Of a stretch of DNA of 45,286 bases, positions 21,665 to 36,850 are shown piece by piece; within the stretch, counting starts at the first letter, position 1, and every line of letters begins with the position of its first letter. The stretch is from Chitinophagales bacterium (GTDB taxonomy: Bacteria; Bacteroidota; Bacteroidia; Chitinophagales; Chitinophagaceae): assembly GCA_021323755.1 (NCBI GenBank), contig JAJPKJ010000061.1, forward strand, positions 1 through 45,286, given 5' to 3'. The notes under the pieces were generated by a model, which searched no databases, was not told the origin of the DNA, and worked only from the letters and a program-made list of their open reading frames with translations. The translations under genes were made by a program, and so were the position numbers.

Positions 21665-22463
21665 ATGGTGGCTATTTTTGAACAAGCACATGGTCAAGGC
21701 ATAGGATACAACTTCAATATTTCCTTACTCGTTTTATTGAAATTTGCGGGGAGCATTTACTGCAAGATAAGGCGAAAGCGCTTGCTCTGATCCTTTATAA
21801 TTTTCATAACGATAGTTCAAAAAATGTTTGAAAAATCAGCGCGGGTTTTCAAGACTTGATCGCTTAGCAGGTAATGATCTTTCTATTTTTTATTTACATT
21901 CTGAAAATATAGGTCTAATTAAAGCTTCCAATGATATTTTTCTTCGGCTATTCAACATCCCTGCTCATAGACAGTTTCCCTTTGTGCTTTTTTTCAAGCT
22001 CGAAAATCAGGACGCAACGGGTGTAGAAATTGTTGAACTTGAGCAATCAAATATTATGTTTGCGTTTGATGAATTATATCCGGTGATTGAGACTCATGTC
22101 GACAAACTAAATAATGACAGCAGTAATTACGTTAAGCCAAAAAAGTTTGTACAATTGTTTGAATTTGTAAAGAAAATTGCTGGGAACGTGTTAGTTGAAT
22201 ATCTGGCAATTAAAGCTGCGGAGTGTGCTGCGCAATATCCGCTATAATCTCGCGTTCGCAATGCACTTGTTAAACCTTGTCTTTGCGGGAAGTTTTGTTT
22301 CGACGAAACTGTTGATGAAATAACAAAATTGAAATTTGCTAATAGATTTTACCCGCTCCAAGCAAAATATTCTCTATTAAATTTTTTAATCCGGAATATG
22401 GTAAAAGAAAAAGATGGTTTGCCACGTGCAGGAATTTATCGAAATTATTATTCAAATTGTTAG
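21665..22463 (+). pseudogene. Decayed gene next to the helicase (frameshifts and an in-frame stop)
   Basis: Coding-like sequence continues across three frames. An ATG at 21665 opens a frame that runs to a TGA near 21790. From about 21695 another frame reads ...FLTRFIEICGEHLLQDKAKA... and stops at about 21832. From 21828 the third frame runs 139 codons (GNDLSIFYLHSENIGLIKAS ... VLVEYLAIKAAECAAQYPL) to a TAA at 22245-22247. The same frame then continues 71 codons (ALVKPCLCGKFCFDETVDEI ... AGIYRNYYSNC) to a TAG at 22461-22463. The Cys motif loosely recalls the PCPCGSGKK of SEC-C tails. The simplest reading is one gene broken by frameshifts plus a nonsense codon. The original family is not recognised. 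It overlaps the end of the convergent helicase gene by 12 nt. Confidence 0.5.
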
Positions 22464-25400
22464 TTGATTCAAAACCCAGAAAGGACGCTTTATCAGGTCA
22501 AAACTTGTAAAGATCTTCATTGTAAATCCAGACTGGTTGTGTATCCTTTTTATTTCGGCATCGGACAATCTTGCGCGTAATGGATGAACTATAACCAACG
22601 CAAAATTGTTACCATCAGTATCTCTTAACGTGATATTTGCATGGATACCTCCAATGTTTTGTGGGCCTAACTGTTCAAAATCTGCTTTTGTATAATCTGA
22701 AAGACCGTTAATAGACATTTTTATTTCCTCTTCAGTGATTTGAGGAATAGTCCCCTCTAATACATAATTAAGCAAACCTAGTGCTAAGTCACGGCTCAGA
22801 ATATGATGAAATGACTGATTTTTATAATCAAGGAGACATTGATAACATGCACCCGTACAATCAGGATTTAAACATTCACTGGCAATTCTGTGCGCTAATT
22901 GCAAAATCTCATTGAGATTTGCTAGTATAGATCTTGCATAACCTGCGCCTCCGGGGACATCATCGTACAAAAATATTTCGCCATGGATTTTGTGATTTCC
23001 TCGGTTCAATGGGCGCACGCCAACTTTAATTTCTGAAGGATCGATCTGTAATACTCTTGCTGCAGCAATGGCTACGAGCGTTCCAAATGAATACCAAATT
23101 GCAAAACCAGACGTCTCGCGGAAAGGAGCATCGAGTTCTGGTGGAAGTTTGACACCGAGCAGAAGTATCTCGGAATGAAACTTATGCGACAATACCAATT
23201 TGTCGTTGCTGTATGGAGGTTGATTGGGACAGTAGGATCCTTTACGTGGACCATGACGGAAGCCAACAGTCGGAGGTACGTCTGCCGGTCTAGTATGTCT
23301 ATTTGGATTACTTGGATCAAGTTCTCTTCCGCAATCACGGCAAATGTAGAAACCAGGGTTACCGCGATCTCGCCCTTTGTTAACTATCACTAAATCTCCA
23401 ATATTGATAAGTGCATCTAGTCGGTCATCGAAGAAAGTTCGTTTGCCAGCAGCTACCAAAGTATTTTCGCCCATCATCAGTTTGACTGCAGAAGCTTCTG
23501 GCCCTCTTTCCAATCCGTCTAACGAATTATAAGCAACCCTGCCTGCATTGGGTAATGCCCCGTCCACCGTAAATCCACGGGGTCTTATGAATTGCATGAC
23601 AGACAACTCCGCTGATTGACAAATTGGGCACATGGTTGGAACAGCAGGATTAACGCCGTCCATAACAATAATATTCTGACATTGTCTGCACTCGACGATA
23701 GCACCTTGCGAGACATAATTAGGGTCAGCGTCAAACGGGTCATGAATGCCAACGCTTGTATATTTATAAGTACGCTGGGCTGTCTGCTTTGTTATTTCTG
23801 CCCCGGGTGCATACTCTGAGATTGCAATCTTCAAATCTCGCTGCATTGTTTCAGTAAAATCATCTGCTGGATGATCTATGTTTTCATTTGGAATAGACAA
23901 TGATACTACATCAACCGGAAATGCATATTTAGGTAGCATCCCGCTATTGAGAAGAGAGACAAATAATTCATCGTTGTTGTCTTTGGATTGGCAATAATTA
24001 TGAATTTCCCTTGGCAACTCTTGGATCCAGCCTGCAACTTGATTATACAGCGTAGTACTAACAATAAACTGTATTCTTCCATTTAATTCTTTTCTGTTGG
24101 AATGTATAAAACTCTCGAGCCTCCGGTTAAGATTATTGTCCAGATAATATTTTATTGTTCCCCAAATCTTAAATAGTTGCTGTTCTCCTAAATCAACTTC
24201 TTCAAAAAATGATTGTAGAATCAATGCCCTAAAATGACGCCGTGCAATTACTTCATTTGCGAAATGCAGGGACGGAACGCGCGGCGGATCGCTAACTATA
24301 GCTTTAGGTTTTTTAAAATAGTACTGGTCGTGACCGCGTGGCTGGCAGAATGTGTAGACAGATGCAAGTGCACTTCCACGTCGACCGGCGCGACCTGCTC
24401 TTTGTTGATAATTAGCAACAGCGGGCGGAACATTTCTTAGGCCTACAAAAAGCAGACTTCCTATGTCTATTCCCATCTCCATGGTAGTCGTAACTGACAG
24501 CGCATCGACACGATGGTCGTATGGATTCTGATTACCGTGAAAAATATCCTGGAACCATCGCTCTTCATTTCTTGCTTCTTTGCTTTCAACTTGCGCAGTA
24601 TGCTCACTTGCTTTGAATGGATATGGATCGGGCTGATCGTTTGTGGGATTGGCATACAATGCACCTGTCTTAAAATAAGTCCTTATTTGTTCGAACGCAA
24701 TCGGCGAAGTCCGCTGGCCGCAGCGCATACAAACATTAAATAATGGAACTGACATGATGTACTTGCACGCGTTACATTGATGAATCTGATCCTGCGGTAA
24801 TGGTGACAGGGCAAATCTGCTTAATCGAATTCCAAATGGTACGAGTGGACGAGTACCCATGCTTACTTTGGCACCAGCAGGTGTAAGAATGTTGAGATTA
24901 TTTGTCAACGTACTCCAAAGCGTATTATCCATCTCCTGCACCCATTGTGCCCTTCCATTTTCATCTGGCAGAGTGCCAGACTCCAATAGCCGAAATGAAA
25001 TAGCATTGATATATCTTCCAAGCCTTCTGTTTTGAGAAACGTTGAAAGGAATGATTCTACCATGATCTGATTGAAAAACTTTGTAAATACGTTGAGTAGT
25101 ATTTCGTCTTTCACTCGGTAAAATTAATTCTCCTTCGCTATCTTTTCCCCATTCCCATGGACTGGCGGGCTCTGCTGCTGTAACTATCCGCTCAAATGCC
25201 AGTAATCGTATCGACGCTTGAAGAAGCTGATACGATTGCTCAGTATTTAGTCCAGGGAAATTTCCAATGTCAGCTACAACCTGCCCTTGATATAAAATTG
25301 GAACTTCCCATTTTGCCAACCCAAGTGGTTCCAAAGAAAAAACTTCGTCAGTGACCTCTCTAAACAAGTCTGCATTAAAAAATAATTCTGCTCTCGTATA

Positions 25401-27911
25401 AGTATTATCCCAATTCTCCTCAAGTTGCGTGAAAATATTTGTGATTCTTTGTCTTGAAGGATCGATTCCTCTTTTTATCTGTAAATCAAGTACCGCAGTC
25501 TTAACTTGTTGATAATTTAAAGATGATGGCGCTGGGTCCATTTTAGAACCATTGCAAGTGCGACAAGTTATTTCCCGCTTTTCTGATTTCCTTCCAATTT
25601 TTGGTGGAGAGTCTTGCTCAATTTTTTCTACTCCCGACCCATGACATACTTTACACGCATACAAAACGAAATATAGACATTGTCGAAATAGTTCATTATG
25701 ATGGTTCTGTTTCAAATCACTGGCAAGTTTAGAGGCTTCCCTTCTCGAATCGCTAAAAACCATCGACTTTCTGCCGTAATTGGGTTCAATTGTGGTTTGA
25801 GGAGGTTGGAATCTGTAGTTTTCTTCAACAATTGTAGCGAAAGACTGAATACCCTTCGTTCGTAATGGTTCGATAACCTCCCTACCTTCGACGCCGGGTT
25901 GACGCCATCTCTGACATCGCGGACATTGCCCTGGAAATGGACTTATCATGATCCCATTGTCCACCGTGGGATTTACCTCAAAAACATCTCTTGCATTGTC
26001 AGCATTATCAACACAAGGCAAGGTCGTTCTCGTTGACCTGTGAGTTACTAAAAAGTTATCATCTGGTTTTTCTACGCCAAACACACGGAACTGCCGAATA
26101 TCTTCGCGTTCACCAGTGAGTGAATCGCTCCAGGGCCACAAACTGTTGACATGCGAGTCTGGAATTCCACCCAGGAACATTAACCCGCAATGCCGGCACG
26201 TAAAAATTTCAAGTACTCTTGAGCCGCAGTCACACCAAGGCCTGGGTTCAGAATAAATTTTACCAATTTGTCTGGGAACATTTTGATTTGCGCATTCACA
26301 TTTTGGATCCATGCAAGCCCAAAGACCCGGCAATCCCCGGAAAAAAGCATGAAGTCTTAACGATAGCAGGGGCGGGGTGCTTTTATTTTGATCGGCTCTT
26401 GCAAAACTTCCTGCTGCTAAAAGACCTGCCGTGGATAGTTGGCGCGAACCGGTTGTCGTTTCCTGAAACCAGCAACGCTTTTCTATTTCATCTAGCGGAG
26501 TTGCGTTCCTCGCAATATTATTTCGAAGCCATTCAACAAACGGGTTTTCCCTAATTAAATCATAAAGAGCGACTTCCTCGCCATTGGTAAAATCCGGATC
26601 GTGCGCATTAAGATCTCGGGCAAGATTCTCTATCGCCGGCCGGGGATTATTTAATTCAAAATTTTTTTGAAAATTTTCGAACGCAGTTTGAGATAGTTTA
26701 TCAGATTCTCGTCTATCAATTCCATCGGTAACAGTTGATGCTCGTATAAGCGAAAAAGAATTCTCTGTTACCCCAAAAAGAGTGCTTGTGAAAGATATTA
26801 ATTTCTCATCACTTCCTTGTGGAACTGAAGCCGTTGTCGCGATCGCTTGAAACTTTTTGCTTTTGACGATTCCTAGTCGTTCTTTAAGTCTGCGAATCAG
26901 GTGAGCAACTTCTGTGCCCTTCGCACCCGAATAGGTATGTGCTTCATCTAATACCAAAGTAAAATGAGCATGGGGATCAGATTGTAGCCATTCTCTTGTT
27001 TGGTCAAAAATGATGCCCTCGATTGGGCGCATCAGCATATATTCCAACATTGAGTAGTTGGTCACTAGAATGTCGGGCGGAGCGCTTTGCATATCCCAGC
27101 GAGTTAGCATTTCTGAGGCCAATGGTCTTGGCCAACCGCCTAATTCTCGGTGCCTTTCCGGTAAATCGTTCCAATCGCGCTGTATCTCTGAAAGATAATC
27201 GGCAATGGTTCTCCTTTTATGATCGTTTTCCCAACTTCCTGCTACGGGCGTGAGACTGGTATACATCCCAAAATGAATTAGGTTGCCATTAAGATTCGCT
27301 CTTTGCCAAGAAGGAGAATTTCCCAGAGAAAGAATTCGTCGGAGTCTGGTCAATTGATCGTTCACCAATGCATTCATTGGATATAAAATAATACTCCGAA
27401 GGGCAGCGGGTCGATTTTCATTTCTTCTGGAGTGTAGCCATTGTTCGGTCTTTGGATTATAACTGCTTTGAAGATTGTCATTGTCGGGTGCCTGCCATTG
27501 CTTGGACTCGGTTATAATTTTTGCAAGGATCGGTAGTAAGAAAGCCTCGGTTTTTCCCGATCCCGTTCCTGTGGCTACCAAGAGGTTCGGCTTTTTGCCG
27601 AACGTCGACAACAAAGCTTCTTCCTGGTGTTTATATAATTTATGACGGTCCACCGGAACACCATATCTGACTAAATCTGAAATACCGGATGGGATAAACT
27701 GATGCTCTTTTTCTAATTCCAATAGAAAATTGCTGACTGTAAAATTAGGAGTTGCCTCGATAAAGGGAATCTGAACAATTTTGTCGGCCAACCGTAACAT
27801 CTCGGCCCTTTCATTATAAATAGTAGTATCTGCAATCTTGTATTGGGTTTCGAGGTACTGAATCAGCGATTCTTTGATATGGTAGAACGATTCATGCGGC
27901 GTTTGCTTCAT
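22452..27911 (-). CDS. Giant SF2 DEAD/DEAH-box helicase with DUF1998/MZB-type C-terminus (DruE-like), ~1819 aa
   Basis: From the ATG at 27911 the protein begins MKQTPHESFYHI; an upstream ATG at 27965 would add 18 residues but overlaps a promoter-like TATATTTAG, so the shorter form is preferred. Helicase motifs (numbered from the upstream ATG, subtract 18): Q-motif YKHQEEAL at 111, Walker A ATGTGSGKT at 131-139, DEAH at 340-343, motif III ATTAS, and motif VI QQRAGRAGRRG in the second RecA domain. Several CxxC zinc knuckles follow (for example CRQCQN...CPIC). The C-terminus has GEIFLYDDVPGGAGYA and CLNPDCTGACYQCLLDYKNQ, the DUF1998/MZB signature. Druantia DruE and DISARM DrmA share this organisation; size favours DruE. 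It is divergent from the GHKL/DUF4338 genes. Confidence 0.85.
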   Translation of the reverse strand: MKQTPHESFYHIKESLIQYLETQYKIADTTIYNERAEMLRLADKIVQIPFIEATPNFTVSNFLLELEKEHQFIPSGISDLVRYGVPVDRHKLYKHQEEALLSTFGKKPNLLVATGTGSGKTEAFLLPILAKIITESKQWQAPDNDNLQSSYNPKTEQWLHSRRNENRPAALRSIILYPMNALVNDQLTRLRRILSLGNSPSWQRANLNGNLIHFGMYTSLTPVAGSWENDHKRRTIADYLSEIQRDWNDLPERHRELGGWPRPLASEMLTRWDMQSAPPDILVTNYSMLEYMLMRPIEGIIFDQTREWLQSDPHAHFTLVLDEAHTYSGAKGTEVAHLIRRLKERLGIVKSKKFQAIATTASVPQGSDEKLISFTSTLFGVTENSFSLIRASTVTDGIDRRESDKLSQTAFENFQKNFELNNPRPAIENLARDLNAHDPDFTNGEEVALYDLIRENPFVEWLRNNIARNATPLDEIEKRCWFQETTTGSRQLSTAGLLAAGSFARADQNKSTPPLLSLRLHAFFRGLPGLWACMDPKCECANQNVPRQIGKIYSEPRPWCDCGSRVLEIFTCRHCGLMFLGGIPDSHVNSLWPWSDSLTGEREDIRQFRVFGVEKPDDNFLVTHRSTRTTLPCVDNADNARDVFEVNPTVDNGIMISPFPGQCPRCQRWRQPGVEGREVIEPLRTKGIQSFATIVEENYRFQPPQTTIEPNYGRKSMVFSDSRREASKLASDLKQNHHNELFRQCLYFVLYACKVCHGSGVEKIEQDSPPKIGRKSEKREITCRTCNGSKMDPAPSSLNYQQVKTAVLDLQIKRGIDPSRQRITNIFTQLEENWDNTYTRAELFFNADLFREVTDEVFSLEPLGLAKWEVPILYQGQVVADIGNFPGLNTEQSYQLLQASIRLLAFERIVTAAEPASPWEWGKDSEGELILPSERRNTTQRIYKVFQSDHGRIIPFNVSQNRRLGRYINAISFRLLESGTLPDENGRAQWVQEMDNTLWSTLTNNLNILTPAGAKVSMGTRPLVPFGIRLSRFALSPLPQDQIHQCNACKYIMSVPLFNVCMRCGQRTSPIAFEQIRTYFKTGALYANPTNDQPDPYPFKASEHTAQVESKEARNEERWFQDIFHGNQNPYDHRVDALSVTTTMEMGIDIGSLLFVGLRNVPPAVANYQQRAGRAGRRGSALASVYTFCQPRGHDQYYFKKPKAIVSDPPRVPSLHFANEVIARRHFRALILQSFFEEVDLGEQQLFKIWGTIKYYLDNNLNRRLESFIHSNRKELNGRIQFIVSTTLYNQVAGWIQELPREIHNYCQSKDNNDELFVSLLNSGMLPKYAFPVDVVSLSIPNENIDHPADDFTETMQRDLKIAISEYAPGAEITKQTAQRTYKYTSVGIHDPFDADPNYVSQGAIVECRQCQNIIVMDGVNPAVPTMCPICQSAELSVMQFIRPRGFTVDGALPNAGRVAYNSLDGLERGPEASAVKLMMGENTLVAAGKRTFFDDRLDALINIGDLVIVNKGRDRGNPGFYICRDCGRELDPSNPNRHTRPADVPPTVGFRHGPRKGSYCPNQPPYSNDKLVLSHKFHSEILLLGVKLPPELDAPFRETSGFAIWYSFGTLVAIAAARVLQIDPSEIKVGVRPLNRGNHKIHGEIFLYDDVPGGAGYARSILANLNEILQLAHRIASECLNPDCTGACYQCLLDYKNQSFHHILSRDLALGLLNYVLEGTIPQITEEEIKMSINGLSDYTKADFEQLGPQNIGGIHANITLRDTDGNNFALVIVHPLRARLSDAEIKRIHNQSGFTMKIFTSFDLIKRPFWVLNQLTI

Positions 27912-28124
27912 CGCAAAGTAGTGTTGGTTGATGACTAAATCTAAATATATATAAAACGCAAACAAAATGCATAAATATTCCTCATTTAGTAAGATTTTTA
28001 CCTTATGTCAAAATAGTTTTATCGGTAGACTGCTTTTGTAAACCGGTTTATAAAAAAATGTTGGCTCGTGAATATTATTTCTGTCATTTTTCCGTAACTA
28101 AAAAAATGCTCACTATTTTAAAAC

Positions 28125-28132
28125 TAACTTTG
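28125..28132 (+). promoter_or_regulatory. Bacteroidota-type -7 box (TAACTTTG) for the 93-aa/GHKL operon
   Basis: TAACTTTG matches TAnnTTTG exactly, 25 nt before the ATG at 28158 and within the 246-bp gap separating it from the divergent helicase. No good -33 TTTG is seen at 19-21 nt upstream, so the promoter may need an activator. Confidence 0.45.
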
Positions 28133-28157
28133 CGAGCTTAGAATAATTGTTTCTAAT

Positions 28158-28439
28158 ATGGATAAACAATTCAAAATACAAATGATTAAAAATGCAAATC
28201 CCGAAATATACTCTTTGTATGAAACAGGAAAGTTGAGTTTGCAGGATGCATACAATGAAACCAAGAGAATTCAATTGGGGCTTTCCGAATTTCGGGGATC
28301 TAACTCAAAAAAGAAACATTTTGCCGTGGATTTTAAACGCATTATGGCTCTTCACAACCCATCATCGGAAGAATTGATTGAAGAAATCAAAAAAGCATTT
28401 CCATTGACATGGAAGGAATTTATTAAGGTGAAAGAATAA
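28158..28439 (+). CDS. Small protein of unknown function at the head of the defence-like operon, 93 aa
   Basis: The protein is basic and helical: MDKQFKIQMIKNANPEIYSL, then YETGKLSLQDAYNETKRIQL, a KKKHFAVDF basic patch and an amphipathic C-terminal helix (SEELIEEIKKAFPLTWKEFI). The G-K-L-S-L-x-x-A-Y pattern resembles the helical linker after the HTH of ParB-like proteins, which hints at nucleic-acid or partner binding, but the similarity is weak. It is preceded by a good -7 box and followed by a 149-nt gap before the GHKL gene. It may be a regulator or a small subunit of the system. I do not assign a family. Confidence 0.55.
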   Translation: MDKQFKIQMIKNANPEIYSLYETGKLSLQDAYNETKRIQLGLSEFRGSNSKKKHFAVDFKRIMALHNPSSEELIEEIKKAFPLTWKEFIKVKE

Positions 28440-28588
28440 TTCGGAATTGACATTCAGTTGCCATCATAGATCTTAAATTCCGTCCGACGGAAATTCAGCA
28501 TAGTAATATAGGTATCTAAGTAGATTTTTTCGCTACAAATTGATAAACTGCTTAATTATAAGATTTAATATTTGACAATTTTTGATTT

Positions 28589-30088
28589 ATGTTAATGAGC
28601 GAAAATAGTTTAATTGATTTTAAGAATTTTGTGGTTGTAACGAGAGATTCGGGATATAAAACAACTGCTTCTGCGTTAGCGGAATTAATTGATAACGCGA
28701 TCGAAGCGAATGCATCAATCGTCGATATCGAAATAAAAAAAAATGTTGAGAATTCCGTCAGAGACTATGAGGTAATTATTGTTGATAACGGCCTTGGGAT
28801 GACGAAAGACGAACTTGATTTATCACTACAATTTGGAGGAACCACTAGGTTTAATTCGCGAAACAATTTTGGACGTTACGGAATGGGCCTTCCAAACAGT
28901 TCTTTGAGTCAATGCAGAAGGGTGGAAGTTATCTCATGGAAAAATAAGTCCGAAATTTTTAAAAACTATCTTGATATCGACGAAATCATTGAAAATAATC
29001 AAAGCTATGCAAATACATCGCAGGGAATCAGTTCCATTGATTATTCTGTGACTACTAAATCCGGAACAATTGTGACTTGGAAAAAATGTGATCGATTGTC
29101 ATTTAAATATTCTAAAAACCTTTTAAAGCACATTAAATTCGAACTGGCGAGGATTTTCAGATATGCATTGTGGCGCGGCGTGCAAATTAGAATCGAAAAT
29201 CAATCAATAATTGCATTTGATCCAATGTTTTTGCGAAAAGGGCTGAATTTAGTGGGTGCGAAGCCTTTCGGACAGGAAATTAATTACGAAGTGAGGATAC
29301 CCGGCAATGAACAAAAAACTTCAACTGTAAAAGTTCGATTTGTTGAATTGCCAATAAAAAATTGGGCAATGCTGTCTAATGATGAAAAAAGAAGAAACCA
29401 AATTACAAAAAGTGCAGGCGTCAGTGTGCTGCGCTCTGAAAGGGAAATAGACTATGGTTGGTTTTTTTTCGGAGATAAGCGAAAAGAAAACTATGACGAT
29501 TGGTGGCGCTGTGAAATACTTTTTACGCCGGAGTTGGATGAATTATTTGGAGTAACTCATACCAAGCAAGAAATAAAGCAAACAGAATTTTTGAATAAGA
29601 TAATTGTGTCGGACTTAGAACAAATTGCGAGGGAATTAAACAAAAGAGTTAGACTTAAATTTATTGAGCTGAAAAAAAATCATCCATCGAGCTATGCAAA
29701 AACCCAACTGGAGCGAACAGATATTTATCAACCTGAATTAAAATACCTGCGAAAAAGCCCTAAGAATAATATCGTGATTAGCGATATAAAAGGATTCAAG
29801 TACGAGATTTTGTCCCAAGCATTAACGGATAATATTTTTTTTGATATTGAAAGAATAGACGATAACATGGTTCTTATCATAAACACGAACCATTTATTCC
29901 ATGAAAGAATTTTCCGTGCCTTGCACGACAAGAAAATTAAAAGTGTTGCAGAGTTTATCAAAGTGATGGAATTAGTGATGTTTGCCGCGGCCCGATCTGA
30001 ACTTTCGTTTAATTCCAGCAAGGAAGTCGAGGTAATTTCGAATTTTAAAAGGGAATGGAGTGCACAATTGAAAACTTTTATCAGTTAA
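28589..30088 (+). CDS. MORC/MutL-like GHKL ATPase, 499 aa
   Basis: The Bergerat ATP-binding fold is clear: N-box ALAELIDNAIEA (residues 29-40; Glu32 catalytic, Asn36 metal), G1 IVDNGLGM (64-71) and G2 FGRYGMGLPNSS (94-105). A transducer-like second domain follows at about 215-345, with SAGVSVLRSEREIDYGWFFFGD and DWWRCEILFTPELDELFGVTH. That 'G-V-S-V-x-R-x-x-R-E-x-D' pattern is typical of prokaryotic MORC-type GHKL proteins, which have been described beside helicases and restriction genes. The C-terminal ~150 residues are unassigned and may mediate dimerisation or DNA contact. Such proteins work as ATP-gated clamps on DNA. It is co-translated with the DUF4338 gene (TAATG). Histidine-kinase identity is excluded: no H-box or sensory domain. 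Confidence 0.82.
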   Translation: MLMSENSLIDFKNFVVVTRDSGYKTTASALAELIDNAIEANASIVDIEIKKNVENSVRDYEVIIVDNGLGMTKDELDLSLQFGGTTRFNSRNNFGRYGMGLPNSSLSQCRRVEVISWKNKSEIFKNYLDIDEIIENNQSYANTSQGISSIDYSVTTKSGTIVTWKKCDRLSFKYSKNLLKHIKFELARIFRYALWRGVQIRIENQSIIAFDPMFLRKGLNLVGAKPFGQEINYEVRIPGNEQKTSTVKVRFVELPIKNWAMLSNDEKRRNQITKSAGVSVLRSEREIDYGWFFFGDKRKENYDDWWRCEILFTPELDELFGVTHTKQEIKQTEFLNKIIVSDLEQIARELNKRVRLKFIELKKNHPSSYAKTQLERTDIYQPELKYLRKSPKNNIVISDIKGFKYEILSQALTDNIFFDIERIDDNMVLIINTNHLFHERIFRALHDKKIKSVAEFIKVMELVMFAAARSELSFNSSKEVEVISNFKREWSAQLKTFIS

Positions 30089-32106
30089 TGAAAAGCGAAA
30101 TAATAGGATTCGATCCAAGGCTCAATAAAAAACATAAACTGGAATTTCTTAAATTCTGCAAAAAGCTGAGCGTTCGACTTAAAAAGAAAGGGTCTCAAGA
30201 AAGATTCAATATTCTTTCCGAAGAGAAAGAACTAGTAAATAAGAAATACAGTGGGAAACATTTTCATGCCAATACGGATTTGGCATTTGTTGAAAACCTT
30301 TTAATTGATTTAATGCTTCAGGATTGGGACGTCAAAATAAATAAAAATAAAGTACAAATCGAACTTCAAGCGATTGGCGAAAAAAGCACCGACATTAACG
30401 AAGTAAAATCTAAAACGAGACGTAGGCATTTGTTTGCCCGAGATGTTCAACTTAACAGCGCTTCCGTCAGGGATTTCATACGAAGCATGGAGAAAAAAAG
30501 ACTAACAAAGGATGGCTGGCATTCTATTTTTTCGGTAATGCGAGATGGTGGCAATCTTTCAAAACATTTGCAAGATATCATTTCAATCACGGATGATGAT
30601 AGAAAAATCGAGTTACTGAAACTCGCCGTCAAACCATACATTCAGGTTGTTGAACCCGGAAAAATCTGTTCAGAAACCGGGTTAATGCTTTCCGATATTT
30701 GGAGATATTTTCGACACACTTGGGTAAATGAATACAAATCTCTTCCCGGGCGCTCAATTTCAATTTTAGTTAGAGATGCGGCGGTGGCAGGGCATCCGGT
30801 CATCGGGATCGCTGCGCTTGGAAGTTCTGTTGCACAACAAACCTGTAGAGATAGGTGGATTGGATGGGAGGGAAATACTTTCTTGGAAAAAATTAAACAT
30901 GAATCTAATCTTAAGTATGCAAAATGGATTGACTCTTCCTTGCATCAAATGCTAGACGAGATTTATTTAAAAGATTTTTTAAAAGAAAAAATAATTAATC
31001 GTTCCGATATTAAAAATCCGACGAAAGAAAGAATCGTTGATCTAAAAAAGCTGTCCGGTTACTATAAGGTAAAGCATATCAACAACCCCCACTCGGCAAA
31101 ATTTTCTGCGGAAAATAGCAACTTGAGTTGGTCACAACGTGCCGAAACATTTTTGTTTAAAAGCAAAAGAACGGCATTACTTGCAGAATTATTGGAGATC
31201 AAAATGATTCTTAAGAATTATGAATTTGTAAAATCAAAAAAGAAGTTTGAATCTGCGCTGGCTCAAAAAATATTTTGTGATGCGATTCAAAAACTTGTTC
31301 GAAAAGTAAAGGCAATTCATGTTGGCATAAATATGATGGATATAATCGTTTGCGGTTCGATAGCTCCCTACAATCATTTGCTTGGTGGCAAACTGGTATG
31401 CTTGTTACTTACCAGTCCAGAAATCACAAAATATTATGGTGAAAAATACAAAGATGCAATTAGTTTAATTGCATCATCTATGAGCGGTAAACCTATAAAA
31501 CGAAAACCTCAACTAGTCCTCTTAGGAACAACGAGTTTGTACGGAATTGGAAGCAGTCAATATAATCGTATTAAACTTCCTGTTGATGAAATTGAAGGCG
31601 ATAATAAATTCAATATTGAATATAAAGAATTGGGTTTTAGCGAGGGGTTTGGGTCGTTCCATTTCAGCAACGATACAACTTCCTTAGCCGATGCAGTAAT
31701 TGGACGTGAAAATGGCCGTGTAAGGGTAAACAGCATATTTGGCGAGGGTTCAAACCCATTAATCAGAAAATTGCGGGATGCTTTTGATTTTTTTGGATTG
31801 GACAGCGATCCAATTTTAAAGCATCGAAATAGAAGAATTGTTTACGGTGTTGCTCTTGCAGAAAATTTTGGAGAATTGTTATTGGGATTGAGCAATACAC
31901 CTAAATATTTTATCCATCAGGCAAGACCACAAATTAAGACCCAAATGATCGCTAACTACTGGATAAAACGTTGGCTGTTGAAGCGAATCAATAATTCAGA
32001 GGTGTTGATAAAAGTAGCCTCTCATTCACTTTCCTATCCCATATCGCATGGAGCAAGAGTTCCTCTTAATCAAGTAATTAGTAGTCAACCATCGTTTGAT
32101 TTCTAA
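30088..32106 (+). CDS. DUF4338 (DruA-like) protein, 672 aa
   Basis: I prefer the ATG at 30088, which forms a TAATG junction with the GHKL stop; an ATG at 30055 would add 11 residues and overlap by 34 nt. The N-terminal ~220 residues are helical and basic. Then comes PGRSISILVRDAAVAGHPVI, followed by GIAALGSSVAQQTCRDRWIGW (about residues 240-260). The 'R-D-x-W-I-G-W' element after a 'hydrophobic-G-x-x-x-L-G-S' strand is the hallmark of DUF4338, the domain of Druantia protein DruA. Later blocks typical of long DUF4338 proteins are ICGSIAPYNHLLGGKLVCLL-like (near 445), LVLLGTTSLYGIGSSQYNRI (near 495-515) and SFHFSNDT. Molecular activity is unknown. Together with the divergent DruE-like helicase, this strongly suggests a Druantia-related system. 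Confidence 0.75.
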   Translation: MKSEIIGFDPRLNKKHKLEFLKFCKKLSVRLKKKGSQERFNILSEEKELVNKKYSGKHFHANTDLAFVENLLIDLMLQDWDVKINKNKVQIELQAIGEKSTDINEVKSKTRRRHLFARDVQLNSASVRDFIRSMEKKRLTKDGWHSIFSVMRDGGNLSKHLQDIISITDDDRKIELLKLAVKPYIQVVEPGKICSETGLMLSDIWRYFRHTWVNEYKSLPGRSISILVRDAAVAGHPVIGIAALGSSVAQQTCRDRWIGWEGNTFLEKIKHESNLKYAKWIDSSLHQMLDEIYLKDFLKEKIINRSDIKNPTKERIVDLKKLSGYYKVKHINNPHSAKFSAENSNLSWSQRAETFLFKSKRTALLAELLEIKMILKNYEFVKSKKKFESALAQKIFCDAIQKLVRKVKAIHVGINMMDIIVCGSIAPYNHLLGGKLVCLLLTSPEITKYYGEKYKDAISLIASSMSGKPIKRKPQLVLLGTTSLYGIGSSQYNRIKLPVDEIEGDNKFNIEYKELGFSEGFGSFHFSNDTTSLADAVIGRENGRVRVNSIFGEGSNPLIRKLRDAFDFFGLDSDPILKHRNRRIVYGVALAENFGELLLGLSNTPKYFIHQARPQIKTQMIANYWIKRWLLKRINNSEVLIKVASHSLSYPISHGARVPLNQVISSQPSFDF

Positions 32107-32135
32107 ATCATTTTGCCATAAAAACTTATAAACAA

Positions 32136-32168
32136 TTTGTTTTATCGCTAACTTTATTAGTAAATTTG
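32136..32168 (+). promoter_or_regulatory. Consensus Bacteroidota promoter for the YunG-like gene
   Basis: A -33 TTTG (32136-32139) and a -7 TAAATTTG (32161-32168) are separated by 21 nt and lie just before the ATG at 32176. It is the best match to the TTTG / TAnnTTTG consensus in the island, so the downstream gene probably has its own constitutive transcript even though it follows the DUF4338 gene closely. Confidence 0.6.
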
Positions 32169-32175
32169 TGGCAGT

Positions 32176-32577
32176 ATGAATTCTAATTTATCCTTTTCGA
32201 CAATTCAAAATCTGATAAAAAAAGCATGGGATGCTAAAACCTGCTTTCCTGTTCAAACAAAGGAATGGAACGAATCTTTGCCAGAATTAGGCCAATGTGC
32301 AGTTACGGCACTTTTAGTCCAGGATTATTTGGGGGGCGATATCGCATTTAATAAAACTTACAATCATTTTTGGAATATCTTATCTGACGGAGAAGAAATT
32401 GATCTCACAAAAAATCAATTTAAAAGTATCCCAAGACTTAATATCGATTCTACAGTCACAAGACAAGCGCTTCTTAATTCTGAATCAGCTGACAGACAAC
32501 GTACTAAAGCTAGGTACGAACTTTTAAAGAAAAGAGTTAAACGACTGGAGTCGACGTTACCTGTTTCGCTGCATTAA
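32176..32577 (+). CDS. YunG-like small protein with conserved Cys/His, 133 aa
   Basis: The core is LGQCAVTALLVQDYLGGDIA (about residues 37-56), then YNHFWNIL (62-69), then EIDLTKNQF (about 74-82). The Cys in GQCAVTA, the His in NHFWN and the Asp in DLT line up as a Cys-His-Asp set like that of transglutaminase/papain-fold proteins. The pattern is that of the YunG family, whose biochemical role is unknown. It has its own consensus promoter and lies 69 nt after the DUF4338 gene. Its stop overlaps that of the convergent gene at 32574. It could be a peptidase-like effector or accessory of the island, or an unrelated passenger. Confidence 0.6.
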   Translation: MNSNLSFSTIQNLIKKAWDAKTCFPVQTKEWNESLPELGQCAVTALLVQDYLGGDIAFNKTYNHFWNILSDGEEIDLTKNQFKSIPRLNIDSTVTRQALLNSESADRQRTKARYELLKKRVKRLESTLPVSLH

Positions 32578-33629
32578 TTTTTATTACCTGTATAATAGAA
32601 TTGCCCTTTCATGCTGAAGAGGTAAAAGATCAGGGCAATAAATAAGCATGGTATAAATGCACCAGACGAAATATGATCCTTTCCAAACTCGCTTGAAAGT
32701 ACTGCGATTCCACCTGTCGACATTAAACCTAAAATTGCGAATCCGACTCTTTTATTTAAAATTGAAATGTTTCTACGGATATTCAATTGAAGAATTTCAG
32801 AAAATAATTCAATCTCCTTATCTGAATCCATCGTTAATGATCTGAACTTAATAAACTCCAATGCTTTTGAAGATTTTATCTCTTTCGTAATTATTTTATA
32901 TGATCTATTGTCTGCTTCGGCTCCGATCATTATTCTTTCTGGATTCGAAATAAAAATATCTTCTGATTTATTATTTATATCTAAAAAATAATTTTCGTGA
33001 GTTTGCCCATCCTCAGCCGAATTAAATATTGAAAGCTCTAAAACATAGATTTTACCCTCATACATTCTAAATGAACTTGATTTGTCAGCAAAATCAAAGT
33101 CGATCAGTGTTTGCAAATTATCCCATTTTTCTCTGTTACGGATATTAATATTAAAGAGCAATGAATTTTTGAATTTAGAATCAAATTCAATAAGTTTTTT
33201 AATCTTCAAATGCCACGGAATCACTACTGATCCACAGGTCTGCACGGACGAGACAAAGTTATTTGGGGGCAAATCTATATCATGACTTGAATTATTTAAT
33301 GGAATGCCATCTGCATCGACAATCTTGCCCAGTCTCAAAAAGTAGTGAATAAGATTAGTGCTTTCTTCAAAATAACAATCTTCTACTAAAACATTGCGAA
33401 TAGGAAGAAATTTTAAATTTCGATCCTCTGCGGGCTCTCCTCTATTCCCTTGCACATACACAATGATTCCGTCCTTGCCCCTGGCTTTGCGATAATTCAG
33501 AAATACATCAGAGCTAACAAATGCTTTATCGTATCTAAAATGGATGCAATAATTTTCAGGTAATGCAAGGGTTGAAATAATGTCCTTTCTATATAATTCG
33601 TTGCTATCAGAAGAAAAAAATAAGTACAT
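32574..33629 (-). CDS. Uncharacterised protein with two C-terminal transmembrane helices, 351 aa
   Basis: The N-terminal ~280 residues are soluble and mixed alpha/beta, with many charged residues (for example LNYRKARGKDGIIVYVQGNR and FRMYEGKIYVLELSIF). They contain no family motif I recognise. Near the C-terminus two hydrophobic segments, about 300-318 (VGFAILGLMSTGGIAVLSS) and 326-342 (GAFIPCLFIALIFYLF), form a membrane hairpin, leaving a short polar tail. A cytoplasmic domain tethered by two C-terminal helices would suit an envelope-acting effector, but that is only suggested by its place at the edge of the defence-like island. It is convergent with the YunG-like gene, sharing the bases of the stop codons. 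Confidence 0.6.
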   Translation of the reverse strand: MYLFFSSDSNELYRKDIISTLALPENYCIHFRYDKAFVSSDVFLNYRKARGKDGIIVYVQGNRGEPAEDRNLKFLPIRNVLVEDCYFEESTNLIHYFLRLGKIVDADGIPLNNSSHDIDLPPNNFVSSVQTCGSVVIPWHLKIKKLIEFDSKFKNSLLFNINIRNREKWDNLQTLIDFDFADKSSSFRMYEGKIYVLELSIFNSAEDGQTHENYFLDINNKSEDIFISNPERIMIGAEADNRSYKIITKEIKSSKALEFIKFRSLTMDSDKEIELFSEILQLNIRRNISILNKRVGFAILGLMSTGGIAVLSSEFGKDHISSGAFIPCLFIALIFYLFSMKGQFYYTGNKN

Positions 33630-33918
33630 AGTTTATGGGTTTATTTACAAGATGCAAACTCTAAGGCAAAAATGATTATTATAAAAACAAACTGAAAAAA
33701 TTTTAAAAATTCTCAACCCTTCAAAATACAACTTAGACTCACCTAACAAAATTGTGAACTCTTAAATGGGCGACTCTTGGCGGAATTTTCATTGCTTCAT
33801 TGTACAATCTAATTAGCTTCAGCATTAAACCATCCATACTATTTTTTATTCGCTAAGTTATAGCAAATGTAATCCCATAGCACCCAATAGATGTTAACCC
33901 CTATTGGTTTGTAGAACT

Positions 33919-34206
33919 CTATTTAGGTCCATTTTCATCTATGGTCTCGTTTGACGGTGGCGAATAATTTTCGATGGTCAAATAAAGATTATTAAGCTGG
34001 CTTAAGGAAAAGATATTGGCCACTACATATGGAGTGAGGAGTAAAGAATATGTAGCCGAAATCATTAAAATACAAACCCCTAGAATGTTTAAAAAATTCC
34101 AATAATTATGAATCCCTAAATCAAAAATATTTACAAGGTAAATTTTGATTTCAAAAGAAAATAAAGTCGCTATTATTGTTGCGACAACTTGAAATAAAAT
34201 ACTCAA
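33919..34206 (-). CDS. Small membrane protein, possibly 5'-truncated (95 aa from a TTG start)
   Basis: Three hydrophobic stretches are visible: ILFQVVATIIATLFSF, then YWNFLNILGVCILMISATYS, then LLTPYVVANIFSL. A short acidic tail follows (SPPSNETIDENGPK). The only start codon is a TTG at 34206, yet the frame stays open and hydrophobic for 26 further codons upstream (reading RILAWTTFSFIYGIRDQS...) until a TAA at 34285-34287, with no ATG. The N-terminus therefore may be lost or begin at an unusual codon. No family is recognised and no partner gene is close. Confidence 0.4.
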   Translation of the reverse strand: MSILFQVVATIIATLFSFEIKIYLVNIFDLGIHNYWNFLNILGVCILMISATYSLLLTPYVVANIFSLSQLNNLYLTIENYSPPSNETIDENGPK

Positions 34207-36341: not shown

Positions 36342-36356
36342 AAAAAATTAATTTGT

Positions 36357-36398
36357 GCCTACTCTGTTGTTCCGTTTTCGGCGAACCGGTGTTTTATC
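36357..36398. repeat. Upstream element, copy 1 (before the beta-barrel-like gene)
   Basis: The plus-strand sequence starts GCCTACTCT, contains TTTTCGGCGA and ends TTTTAT. It matches 36811-36850 over about 40 nt with a few indels and lies 15 nt from the start codon of the gene at 36341, the same distance as copy 2. It also overlaps the last codons of the gene ending at 36394. Confidence 0.5.
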
Positions 36399-36795: not shown

Positions 36796-36810
36796 ATCTT
36801 TAAATTTTTT

Positions 36811-36850
36811 GCCTACTCTTTGATCCGGTTTTCGGCGACCCCGATTTTAT
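36811..36850. repeat. Upstream element, copy 2 (before the small membrane protein gene)
   Basis: It matches 36357-36398: GCCTACTCT, then TTTTCGGCGA, then TTTTAT, in the same order and orientation. The remainder of the 303-bp divergent gap (36796-37098) shows an AT-rich tract before the lipoprotein gene and a weak inverted repeat ACGGG-N12-CCCGT near 36964, and nothing else recognisable. Confidence 0.5.

Follow-up and report, generated by a model that had tools for sequence, protein, structure and literature searches.

Does a locus in which a DruE-type helicase faces an operon for a GHKL ATPase and a DruA protein form a single anti-phage system, and which of its parts belong together? The question is raised by positions 1 to 45,286 of contig JAJPKJ010000061.1 from a Chitinophagales bacterium; this whole 45,286-nucleotide stretch is referred to here as the window. 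An initial annotation had proposed a Druantia-related defence island in which the GHKL ATPase takes the place of DruB, DruC and DruD. With a confidence slightly better than even, we infer that the locus encodes a two-module anti-phage system related to Druantia type I.

Components of the locus

All five ORFs of the initial annotation were confirmed at the positions claimed, and the locus comprises the following features:

22452..27911, minus strand: DruE, a YprA-family SF2 helicase with an MrfA-type Zn-binding C-terminus (profiles and motifs)
27912..28157, no strand: divergent intergenic region, a putative promoter region, between DruE and the 93-aa ORF (sequence read)
28158..28439, plus strand: 93-aa ORF, possible small regulator (codon score and slot position)
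28589..30088, plus strand: GHKL (paraMORC-like) ATPase (HATPase_c_3, invariant catalytic residues)
30055..32106, plus strand: long DruA, DUF4338 (Pfam and PADLOC profiles)
32176..32577, plus strand: YunG-like gene, a neighbour (PF24585, 104.9 bits)

The helicase is, as had been proposed, a DruE-like protein with the DUF1998/MZB C-terminus of the Druantia type I helicase. It scores 1007.6 bits against PADLOC DruE1, lies above the Pfam cut-offs for DEAD, Helicase_C and MZB (the last at 53.2 bits), and has five detectable SF2 motif strings, including Walker A at 131, DEAH at 340 and QQRAGRAGRR at 1187 in ORF numbering; the Walker A Lys is residue 138 in this numbering and 120 when counted from the ATG at 27911. 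The ORF is readable from a TTG at 27965 (22452-27965(-), 1837 aa); translation probably begins at the ATG at 27911, given that the clustered copy of this DruE is 1819 aa long. The DUF4338 identity of the DruA component also held, at 102.1 bits against Pfam DruA (PF14236, cut-off 27) and 574.5 bits against PADLOC DruA1 across residues 52-672, and comparison of its profile with six short DruA gave a probability of 100%. It represents a long subfamily of the Druantia type I DruA, set apart from short DruA by an additional N-terminal stretch and an insertion of ~150 aa, and its gene overlaps that of the GHKL ATPase by 34 nt. DUF4338 is termed a GNAT-like domain in the available text of PMC10853773, and no activity of DruA is reported in the literature covered.

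The GHKL protein scores 83.8 bits against HATPase_c_3 (cut-off 25), and its Glu32, Asn36 and Asp66 are identical in 40/40 aligned homologues, as are G68, G95, G98 and G100, with G70 present in 39/40; the GHKL ATP-binding motifs that characterize the MORC family are all found. Its closest solved structures are MORC2 and MORC3, with the similarity confined to the first ~120 positions. The published MORC S5 motif GhXhhpXXRhl is matched strictly by 0/40 homologues and by 40/40 once the penultimate position is freed. The earlier description of the protein as MORC-like is therefore retained in part, as a real GHKL ATPase with intact motifs, and its assignment to MORC sensu stricto was rejected because of the strict S5 result.

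The 93-aa ORF has a positive codon score solely in its own frame and matches no Pfam, PADLOC or NCBIfam family. In some other loci its slot encodes an HTH_17 or sigma-70-like protein, from a Pfam comparison of small upstream proteins selected by eye, and judging by gene position the 93-aa protein may be a cassette regulator. It has no match among plasmids at E 0.1, and among 195 family genomes it is found in its own, with two weak matches elsewhere (E 0.003-0.007). An RNA element in the locus was rejected, as an Rfam scan of 22000-34000 at E 0.1 returned no match.

The YunG-like gene, previously listed at the end of the operon, has relatives in five other loci; its place and strand vary across the six, and it was rejected as a system gene and probably lies outside the system. 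The term "island" also proved too broad, as PADLOC matches among the ten window proteins scanned are confined to the helicase, GHKL and DruA. Between 20500 and 37100, the repeats inspected (20/56 direct families and 25/69 inverted pairs) are mostly imperfect and AT-rich and were taken for chance, and none of those inspected frames the locus.

Pairing of the GHKL ATPase with long DruA

The tight unit of the locus is GHKL-DruA, and DruE is a separable partner. In a genome scan, which detects only DruA bearing one of two conserved peptides, GHKL lies directly upstream of DruA in 45/45 loci from about nine phyla with DruA of at least 600 bits, and in 0/13 loci with lower-scoring full-length DruA, the threshold having been chosen post hoc, as no score fell between 548 and 611 bits. 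This division is blurred by three plasmid DruA (L078, L124 and L126; 403-457 bits), which also have a GHKL directly upstream, a distant one of 172-185 bits. The GHKL and DruA genes overlap in 26/45 loci when the first possible start codon is taken, a count that may be too high on this basis.

Evolutionary distances of GHKL and DruA are correlated at r = 0.905 (n=48), whereas those with DruE (n=20) give 0.24 for GHKL and 0.31 for DruA; in a permutation test that ignores shared ancestry, the first value was reached in 0/2000 permutations and the latter two in 24 and 3 of 2000. The 48 loci have DruA of >600 aa and GHKL of >400 aa, 20 have a DruE ORF of >1300 aa, truncated genes were dropped, and L001 and L002, which are copies of the window, were excluded. 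Among the window and six close relatives, the correlation is 0.97 for GHKL-DruA against 0.59 and 0.51 for the pairs with DruE. The earlier expectation that helicase, GHKL and DruA co-occur elsewhere did hold, with co-occurrence in metagenome relatives taken as equal contig size among best-120 lists rather than as gene order. Eight of the best 10 DruE homologues besides the window's own lie on contigs of equal exact size in the best-120 DruA matches, and six of these eight are also size-matched in the best-120 GHKL matches; the DruE and DruA lists have nine size-matched contigs (own included), compared with a mean of 0.28 and a maximum of 3 in a shifted control.

In a set of 39 genomes drawn from the 65 loci of the DruA scan, 35 have GHKL-DruA and 26 of those 35 have a DruE-like match, while 7/8 genomes with a second GHKL show no DruE match. 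A two-GHKL locus lacking DruE is also present on a Roseivivax plasmid. Neither DruE nor DruB/C/D-like genes are present in the flanks of 13/45 loci, which counts against the two-module reading. The genome counts, together with the weak DruE correlation and a difference in G+C (DruE 42.4%, GHKL 35.5%, DruA 36.4%), are consistent with two independent modules lying side by side, one built on DruE and the other a GHKL-DruA system sufficient by itself. However, the divergent region is common to both, DruA co-occurs with most of the best DruE relatives on size-matched contigs, and the window's DruE, unlike its relatives in L076, L130 and L131, would be left with no DruA partner here if the cassette were taken away. 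Independence is therefore considered unlikely, and a single system of two modules is preferred.

The DruE clade and its partner genes

On a phylogenetic tree of DruE, the side holding the window and the side holding the other GHKL-DruA loci are separated by 1.8 changes per site across the midpoint (0.62 + 1.21), in a quick-mode tree with long branches and uneven letter make-up whose window-side rows are the window's own best matches. DruE from Meiothermus sits on the window's side and is 53% identical to the window's DruE, and those of L130 and L131 were assigned to the clade by identity rather than placed in the tree. These relatives, from Meiothermus and two genomes of a Caldilineaceae-centred (Chloroflexota) draw, exhibit DruE identities of 48-53% with the window, whereas other DruE are about 30% identical. 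Their loci (L076, L130 and L131) encode a short DruA of 402-416 aa, DruE and a PD-(D/E)XK nuclease (DruK-like), lack GHKL, and match none of the DruB/C/D families within the stretches read.

The window shares the DruE clade of this arrangement but possesses a long DruA and GHKL and has no adjoining nuclease. No window ORF matches the PD-(D/E)XK nuclease, its own genome likewise gives no match (a weak negative), and Pfam detects no known nuclease in the DruE/GHKL/DruA trio. Within the window's clade, as judged from the three relatives read, the cassette occupies the place of the short DruA and nuclease. Given that this DruE clade is distant and in three other loci lacks GHKL, the GHKL-DruA cassette appears to have paired with a helicase a second, separate time in the window. 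The cassette is not a general replacement for the nuclease, as the PD-(D/E)XK gene F5 adjoins GHKL-DruA in 9/45 loci, in the other DruE clade.

The DruB, DruC and DruD of Druantia type I were not found: their PADLOC profiles match none of the ten window proteins, no window ORF of at least 60 aa is similar to F3, F4, F11, F15 or F16, and the window's own genome has no match to F3 or DruD queries (a weak negative). The absence of DruB/C/D from the window agrees with the earlier suggestion that GHKL replaces them, but substitution itself was rejected, since DruB/C/D-like genes are present within the 10-kb flanks of 30/45 GHKL-DruA loci. Of the 30, 19 contain a family with a tested member that PADLOC assigns to DruB or DruD; the other 11 have F3 alone, a family unrecognised by PADLOC.

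The same counts bear on whether the window is a degraded copy of an ordinary Druantia type I, stripped of its former DruB/C/D and with GHKL as an accessory. Loss would fit the DruA1 and DruE1 profile matches, the retention of DruB/C/D-like genes by most relatives and the lack of DruD and F3 matches in the genome. The ORFs of DruE, GHKL and DruA are intact, however, the close DruE relatives retain DruA (8/10) and also GHKL (6/10) on size-matched contigs, and the three loci of the same clade likewise lack the DruB/C/D families in the stretches read. GHKL, moreover, is invariant in all 45 loci. We regard degradation as rather improbable and retain the two-module system.

Known systems and a proposed mechanism

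The window shares with Druantia type I a DruE1-type helicase and a DUF4338 DruA, by PADLOC profiles, and differs in having no DruB, DruC or DruD match, an added GHKL, and a DruE from a distant clade. A canonical-looking Nitrosococcus locus (L077) has a 410-aa DruA and no GHKL match in its stretch, whereas DruA in the window is long. In the available portion of Iyer et al. 2008 (PMC2292703), SF2 helicases and nucleases are described as neighbours of MORC and paraMORC genes; these restriction-type loci resemble the window in their intact GHKL motifs, near S5 match and adjoining SF2 helicase, but the window's GHKL family lacks the strict motif (0/40) and is paired with DruA, and neither DUF4338 nor Druantia is mentioned in that portion. 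MzaB of the MZA system is similar to the window's GHKL in the GHKL domain only (66-84 bits, residues ~18-214), its NCBIfam equivalog score of 83.9 bits is far under the cut-off of 850, and no other Mza profile matches the ten proteins scanned. ARMADA, BRIGADE and TALON (PMC12458937) share the YprA-family helicase core, but the window helicase scores best as DruE1, and no methyltransferase partner is seen in the window because PADLOC scores only the helicase, GHKL and DruA among its ten proteins. The terms MORC, GHKL, HATPase and MutL have 0 occurrences in the main text of that paper, and no paper linking GHKL to Druantia was found in the open-licence literature.

GHKL, SF2 helicase and DUF4338 are DNA-handling or unknown families, which would also suit a MORC-like module that serves genome maintenance or a restriction-type function and has no link to phage defence. 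This is very improbable given the PADLOC defence matches and the patchy spread: among 394 genomes of the family, long DruA (>1000 bits) is present in the window's own only, with short-DruA-type matches of 162-171 bits in four others, and the window's DruE is found in its own genome only among 396 of the order. Plasmids also carry relatives, as do three contigs in a viral collection; a DruE search of viral contigs gave no match.

In the two-module system, the first module would be a DruE whose clade is otherwise associated with a short DruA and a Cas4-like PD-(D/E)XK nuclease, and the second would be the GHKL ATPase and long DruA, a cassette inherited as one and able to pair with different motors. 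By analogy with MutL and MORC, the GHKL dimer may close on DNA in an ATP-dependent manner with DruA as its bound partner; MORC2 is described as an ATP-dependent DNA clamp/compactor in the available text of PMC12216690. DruE could load where phage replication intermediates expose single-stranded 3' ends and then travel along DNA; type III DruE prefers 3'-tailed DNA, according to the accessible part of PMC13192584. Where motor meets clamp, phage DNA would be blocked, compacted or led to cutting.

The invariant GHKL partner of one DruA subfamily provides a concrete handle on DruA in the form of a candidate binary complex, and the placement of a MORC/MutL-like clamp next to a motor of phage defence bears on the role of prokaryotic MORC relatives. 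The comparisons suggest that interchangeable modules make up Druantia-type defences, and that one DruE clade uses either short DruA with a nuclease or GHKL with long DruA. A bolder reading, rather less likely than not, is that a widespread, so far undescribed defence class has GHKL-long DruA as its mobile core, sufficient by itself and plugging into different partners, and that in the window this core has taken the place of short DruA and nuclease. If so, its partners would be either DruE of distant clades, whether or not DruB/C/D is present, or, where DruE is absent, a second GHKL with its own sigma-like regulator; in the window the immune output would then come from the GHKL clamp and the extra DruA domains, with no known nuclease involved.

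A search from the GHKL side of 277 genomes from the phylum of an Acidobacteriia genome recovered only the known centre genome and three distant GHKLs of 169-222 bits, which leaves the GHKL-DruA pairing neither strengthened nor weakened. Two of the distant GHKLs (L138 and L139) are surrounded by genes of a set that is also present in plasmid L080, where its annotations include DUF4007 and PAPS-reductase.

Genes of the DruE-GHKL-DruA locus

The locus comprises a minus-strand giant helicase and a plus-strand run of genes that includes a GHKL ATPase and a long form of DruA.

Genes of the locus, from reading of the open frames and from profiles (the HATPase_c_3, DruA, MZB and YunG scores all exceed the Pfam cut-offs)
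22452-27911, minus strand (frame readable from 27965): giant helicase DruE (PADLOC DruE1, 1007.6 bits; Pfam MZB, 53.2 bits)
~246 bp: divergent region separating the minus-strand helicase from the plus-strand run
Plus strand, one run: 93-aa ORF, then GHKL ATPase, then long DruA
Plus-strand run: GHKL ATPase (Pfam HATPase_c_3, 83.8 bits)
Plus-strand run: long DruA (PADLOC DruA1, 574.5 bits; Pfam DruA, 102.1 bits)
3' of DruA: YunG-like gene (Pfam YunG, 104.9 bits)

These matches bear out the initial annotation of the helicase as DruE-like and of the DUF4338 protein as DruA, and that of the GHKL ATPase is upheld by its profile and by catalytic residues that are the same in 40 of 40 aligned homologues. 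Its description as MORC-like stands in part: MORC relatives are the best solved matches to the GHKL profile, over the first ~120 positions, but the strict MORC motif fails. Five helicase motif strings were found in DruE, and Pfam detected no nuclease domain in the helicase, GHKL or DruA at an E-value of 0.001. The 93-aa ORF matches no family and has gene-like codon use in its own frame. G+C content is 42.4% in DruE, 35.5% in GHKL, 36.4% in DruA and 39-40% in the flanks.

In the best model, GHKL would form a DNA clamp with DruA and cooperate with the translocating helicase, each functional step being one that we infer. In the portions of the sources available, MORC2 is described as an ATP-dependent clamp (PMC12216690), DUF4338 is termed GNAT-like (PMC10853773), and type III DruE is a dimer with a preference for 3'-tailed DNA (PMC13192584). 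The nuclease of type III Druantia is a PLD domain according to the same portion of PMC13192584, whereas the DruE described here has no PLD domain by Pfam. In the open-licence literature, no paper was found that treats Druantia together with GHKL, MORC or HATPase, and the sole paper found with both DUF4338 and DUF1998, on Ralstonia, gives type I as DruABCDE in the part available. The main text of PMC12458937 contains no occurrence of MORC, GHKL, HATPase or MutL, and the Druantia passages of the PADLOC paper do not mention GHKL. Within these searches, a link between GHKL and Druantia is absent from print.

GHKL upstream of one DruA subfamily

A DruA alignment was scanned against one genome per species, yielding 65 loci. 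DruA scores at least 600 bits in 45 of these, from about nine phyla as judged from record titles, and all 45 carry GHKL directly upstream of DruA at a spacing of -103 to +36 nt. The two genes overlap in 26 of the 45, by 4 nt in 13 of the 26, when the first possible start is used. The remaining 20 loci comprise 13 with DruA of at least 600 aa, none of which has an adjoining GHKL, and seven fragments, in two of which (L064 and L069) GHKL adjoins; in a third, L061, GHKL precedes a broken DruA. GHKL distances correlate with those of DruA over 48 loci (r 0.905), a value reached by 0 of 2000 permutations.

Outside the scan the border is blurred: plasmid DruA of 403-457 bits (Leisingera, Roseivivax and Paracoccus) has a distant GHKL of 172-185 bits directly upstream, and no GHKL match lies, in the stretches read, near plasmid DruA of Haloplanus (544 bits), Hymenobacter (465 bits) or Halobaculum (two pieces, 154 and 295 bits). 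Profile comparison places long and short DruA in a single family (probability 100%); an additional N-terminal stretch and a ~150-aa insertion set the long form apart. DruA-family proteins of ~1180-1280 aa without GHKL occur in six loci (L051, L053, L056, L060, L063 and L068), five of them near the ~1550-aa family F6 or its F7 neighbour; the F6 member from L028 carries a HerA/FtsK-type ATPase domain. A distant GHKL paralogue lies near one gene set in L073-L075, L138, L139 and plasmid L080. The L080 annotations for this set are DUF4007, ATP-binding protein and PAPS reductase, and blastp was used to check homology among the sets in L080, L138 and L139.

DruE lies within the 10-kb flanks of 26 of the 45 GHKL-DruA loci, and the co-occurrence of helicase, GHKL and DruA in other genomes is supported. 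The proposal that GHKL stands in place of DruB, DruC and DruD is contradicted by DruB/C/D-like genes in the same flanks of 30 of the 45. Among these 30, 19 include families with a tested member called DruB or DruD by PADLOC, and 11 hold F3, a ~960-aa family, as the sole DruB/C/D-like gene. F3 is possibly an unrecognised DruB/C equivalent. Members at L024 12001-14889 (no PADLOC or Pfam match) and at L077 5037-7904 on a Nitrosococcus plasmid (no PADLOC match) have DruA on one side and DruD on the other; both loci are type-I-like, L077 being a canonical-looking type I locus with short DruA and no GHKL match.

DruE clades and the GHKL-DruA cassette

In the 20 loci with a long DruE, the correlation is 0.93 for GHKL-DruA, 0.24 for GHKL-DruE (reached by 24 of 2000 permutations) and 0.31 for DruA-DruE (3 of 2000). 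The window's DruE is just 28-31% identical to DruE from 19 other GHKL-DruA loci, and the two sides of the DruE tree, a quick run with some long branches and uneven letter make-up, are separated across the midpoint by 1.8 changes per site. DruE from a Meiothermus plasmid (L076; 53% identity) groups on the window's side. Of 281 genomes sampled from the phylum to which a Caldilineaceae genome belongs, two (L130 and L131) have DruE members ~48% identical to the window's, placed by identity alone, outside the tree. All three loci hold short DruA, DruE and a Cas4-like PD-(D/E)XK nuclease, with no GHKL or DruB/C/D-family match in the stretches read; they make up a compact, three-gene Druantia-like variant. 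In the other DruE clade, nuclease family F5 lies beside GHKL-DruA in 9 of 45 loci, and nuclease replacement is therefore a reading for the window's clade alone.

The window's close relatives have DruE identities of 61-80%. Of the best 10 DruE matches besides its own, eight are on contigs of exactly a size also seen for DruA, six of these also for GHKL (shifted-size control for DruE/DruA: mean 0.28, maximum 3). Among the window and six relatives, correlations are 0.97 for GHKL-DruA, 0.59 for DruE-GHKL and 0.51 for DruE-DruA. Three relatives have DruE 79-80% identical to the window's and DruA just 60-62%, and compared with a fourth relative the same trio has DruA 75-78% and DruE just 65-66% identical. 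These identities point to exchange of the GHKL-DruA cassette; unequal rates are a possible alternative. Neither the pairing nor the two-module reading depends on the three plasmid DruA below 600 bits that have a GHKL, the 19/11 split or the nine nuclease loci, which narrow the replacement claim to the window's clade.

Second GHKL genes and candidate regulators

A second GHKL is present in 9 of the 45 loci, from eight genomes (L005 and L006 are a single MAG). Among 39 genomes checked whole, which are possibly incomplete, DruE-like matches at E 1e-30 occur in 28, including 26 of the 35 with GHKL-DruA and one of the eight with two GHKLs. A rule that two GHKLs exclude DruE is countered by L014, the Leisingera plasmid L078 and contig L071, where both are present. 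A sigma-70-like gene lies just upstream in four second-GHKL loci (L005, L007, L008 and L019), where one or more regions score at or above a Pfam cut-off; the signal is weak in L012 and L013 and was not found in L014.

Sigma-70-like proteins next to two-GHKL-DruA loci
L005: 6001-6612
L007: 5931-6578
L008: 4283-4918
L019: 5749-6453
L124: 7154-7720

In a Roseivivax plasmid record, the annotation lists DruA, a sigma-70 factor and two ATP-binding proteins. The sigma-70-like neighbours hint at a dedicated transcription switch for a defence system. Of five small upstream proteins from single-GHKL loci, chosen by eye, four match HTH_17 (L024, L026, L027 and L038) and that of L064 has nothing above the Pfam cut-off. 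Since HTH_17 and sigma-70-like proteins lie upstream elsewhere, a regulatory role is suggested for the window's 93-aa protein.

At 32176-33629 lie the YunG-like gene and, convergent with it, the gene of a 351-aa protein that matches no Pfam family; relatives of this convergent pair lie near GHKL-DruA in L005 and L006; the pair is possibly a separate two-gene module. Further along, a DUF805b RNA is matched in Rfam at 36810-36845 (minus strand), and a 43-nt repeat of this stretch, 77% identical, lies 454 nt away at 36352-36394.
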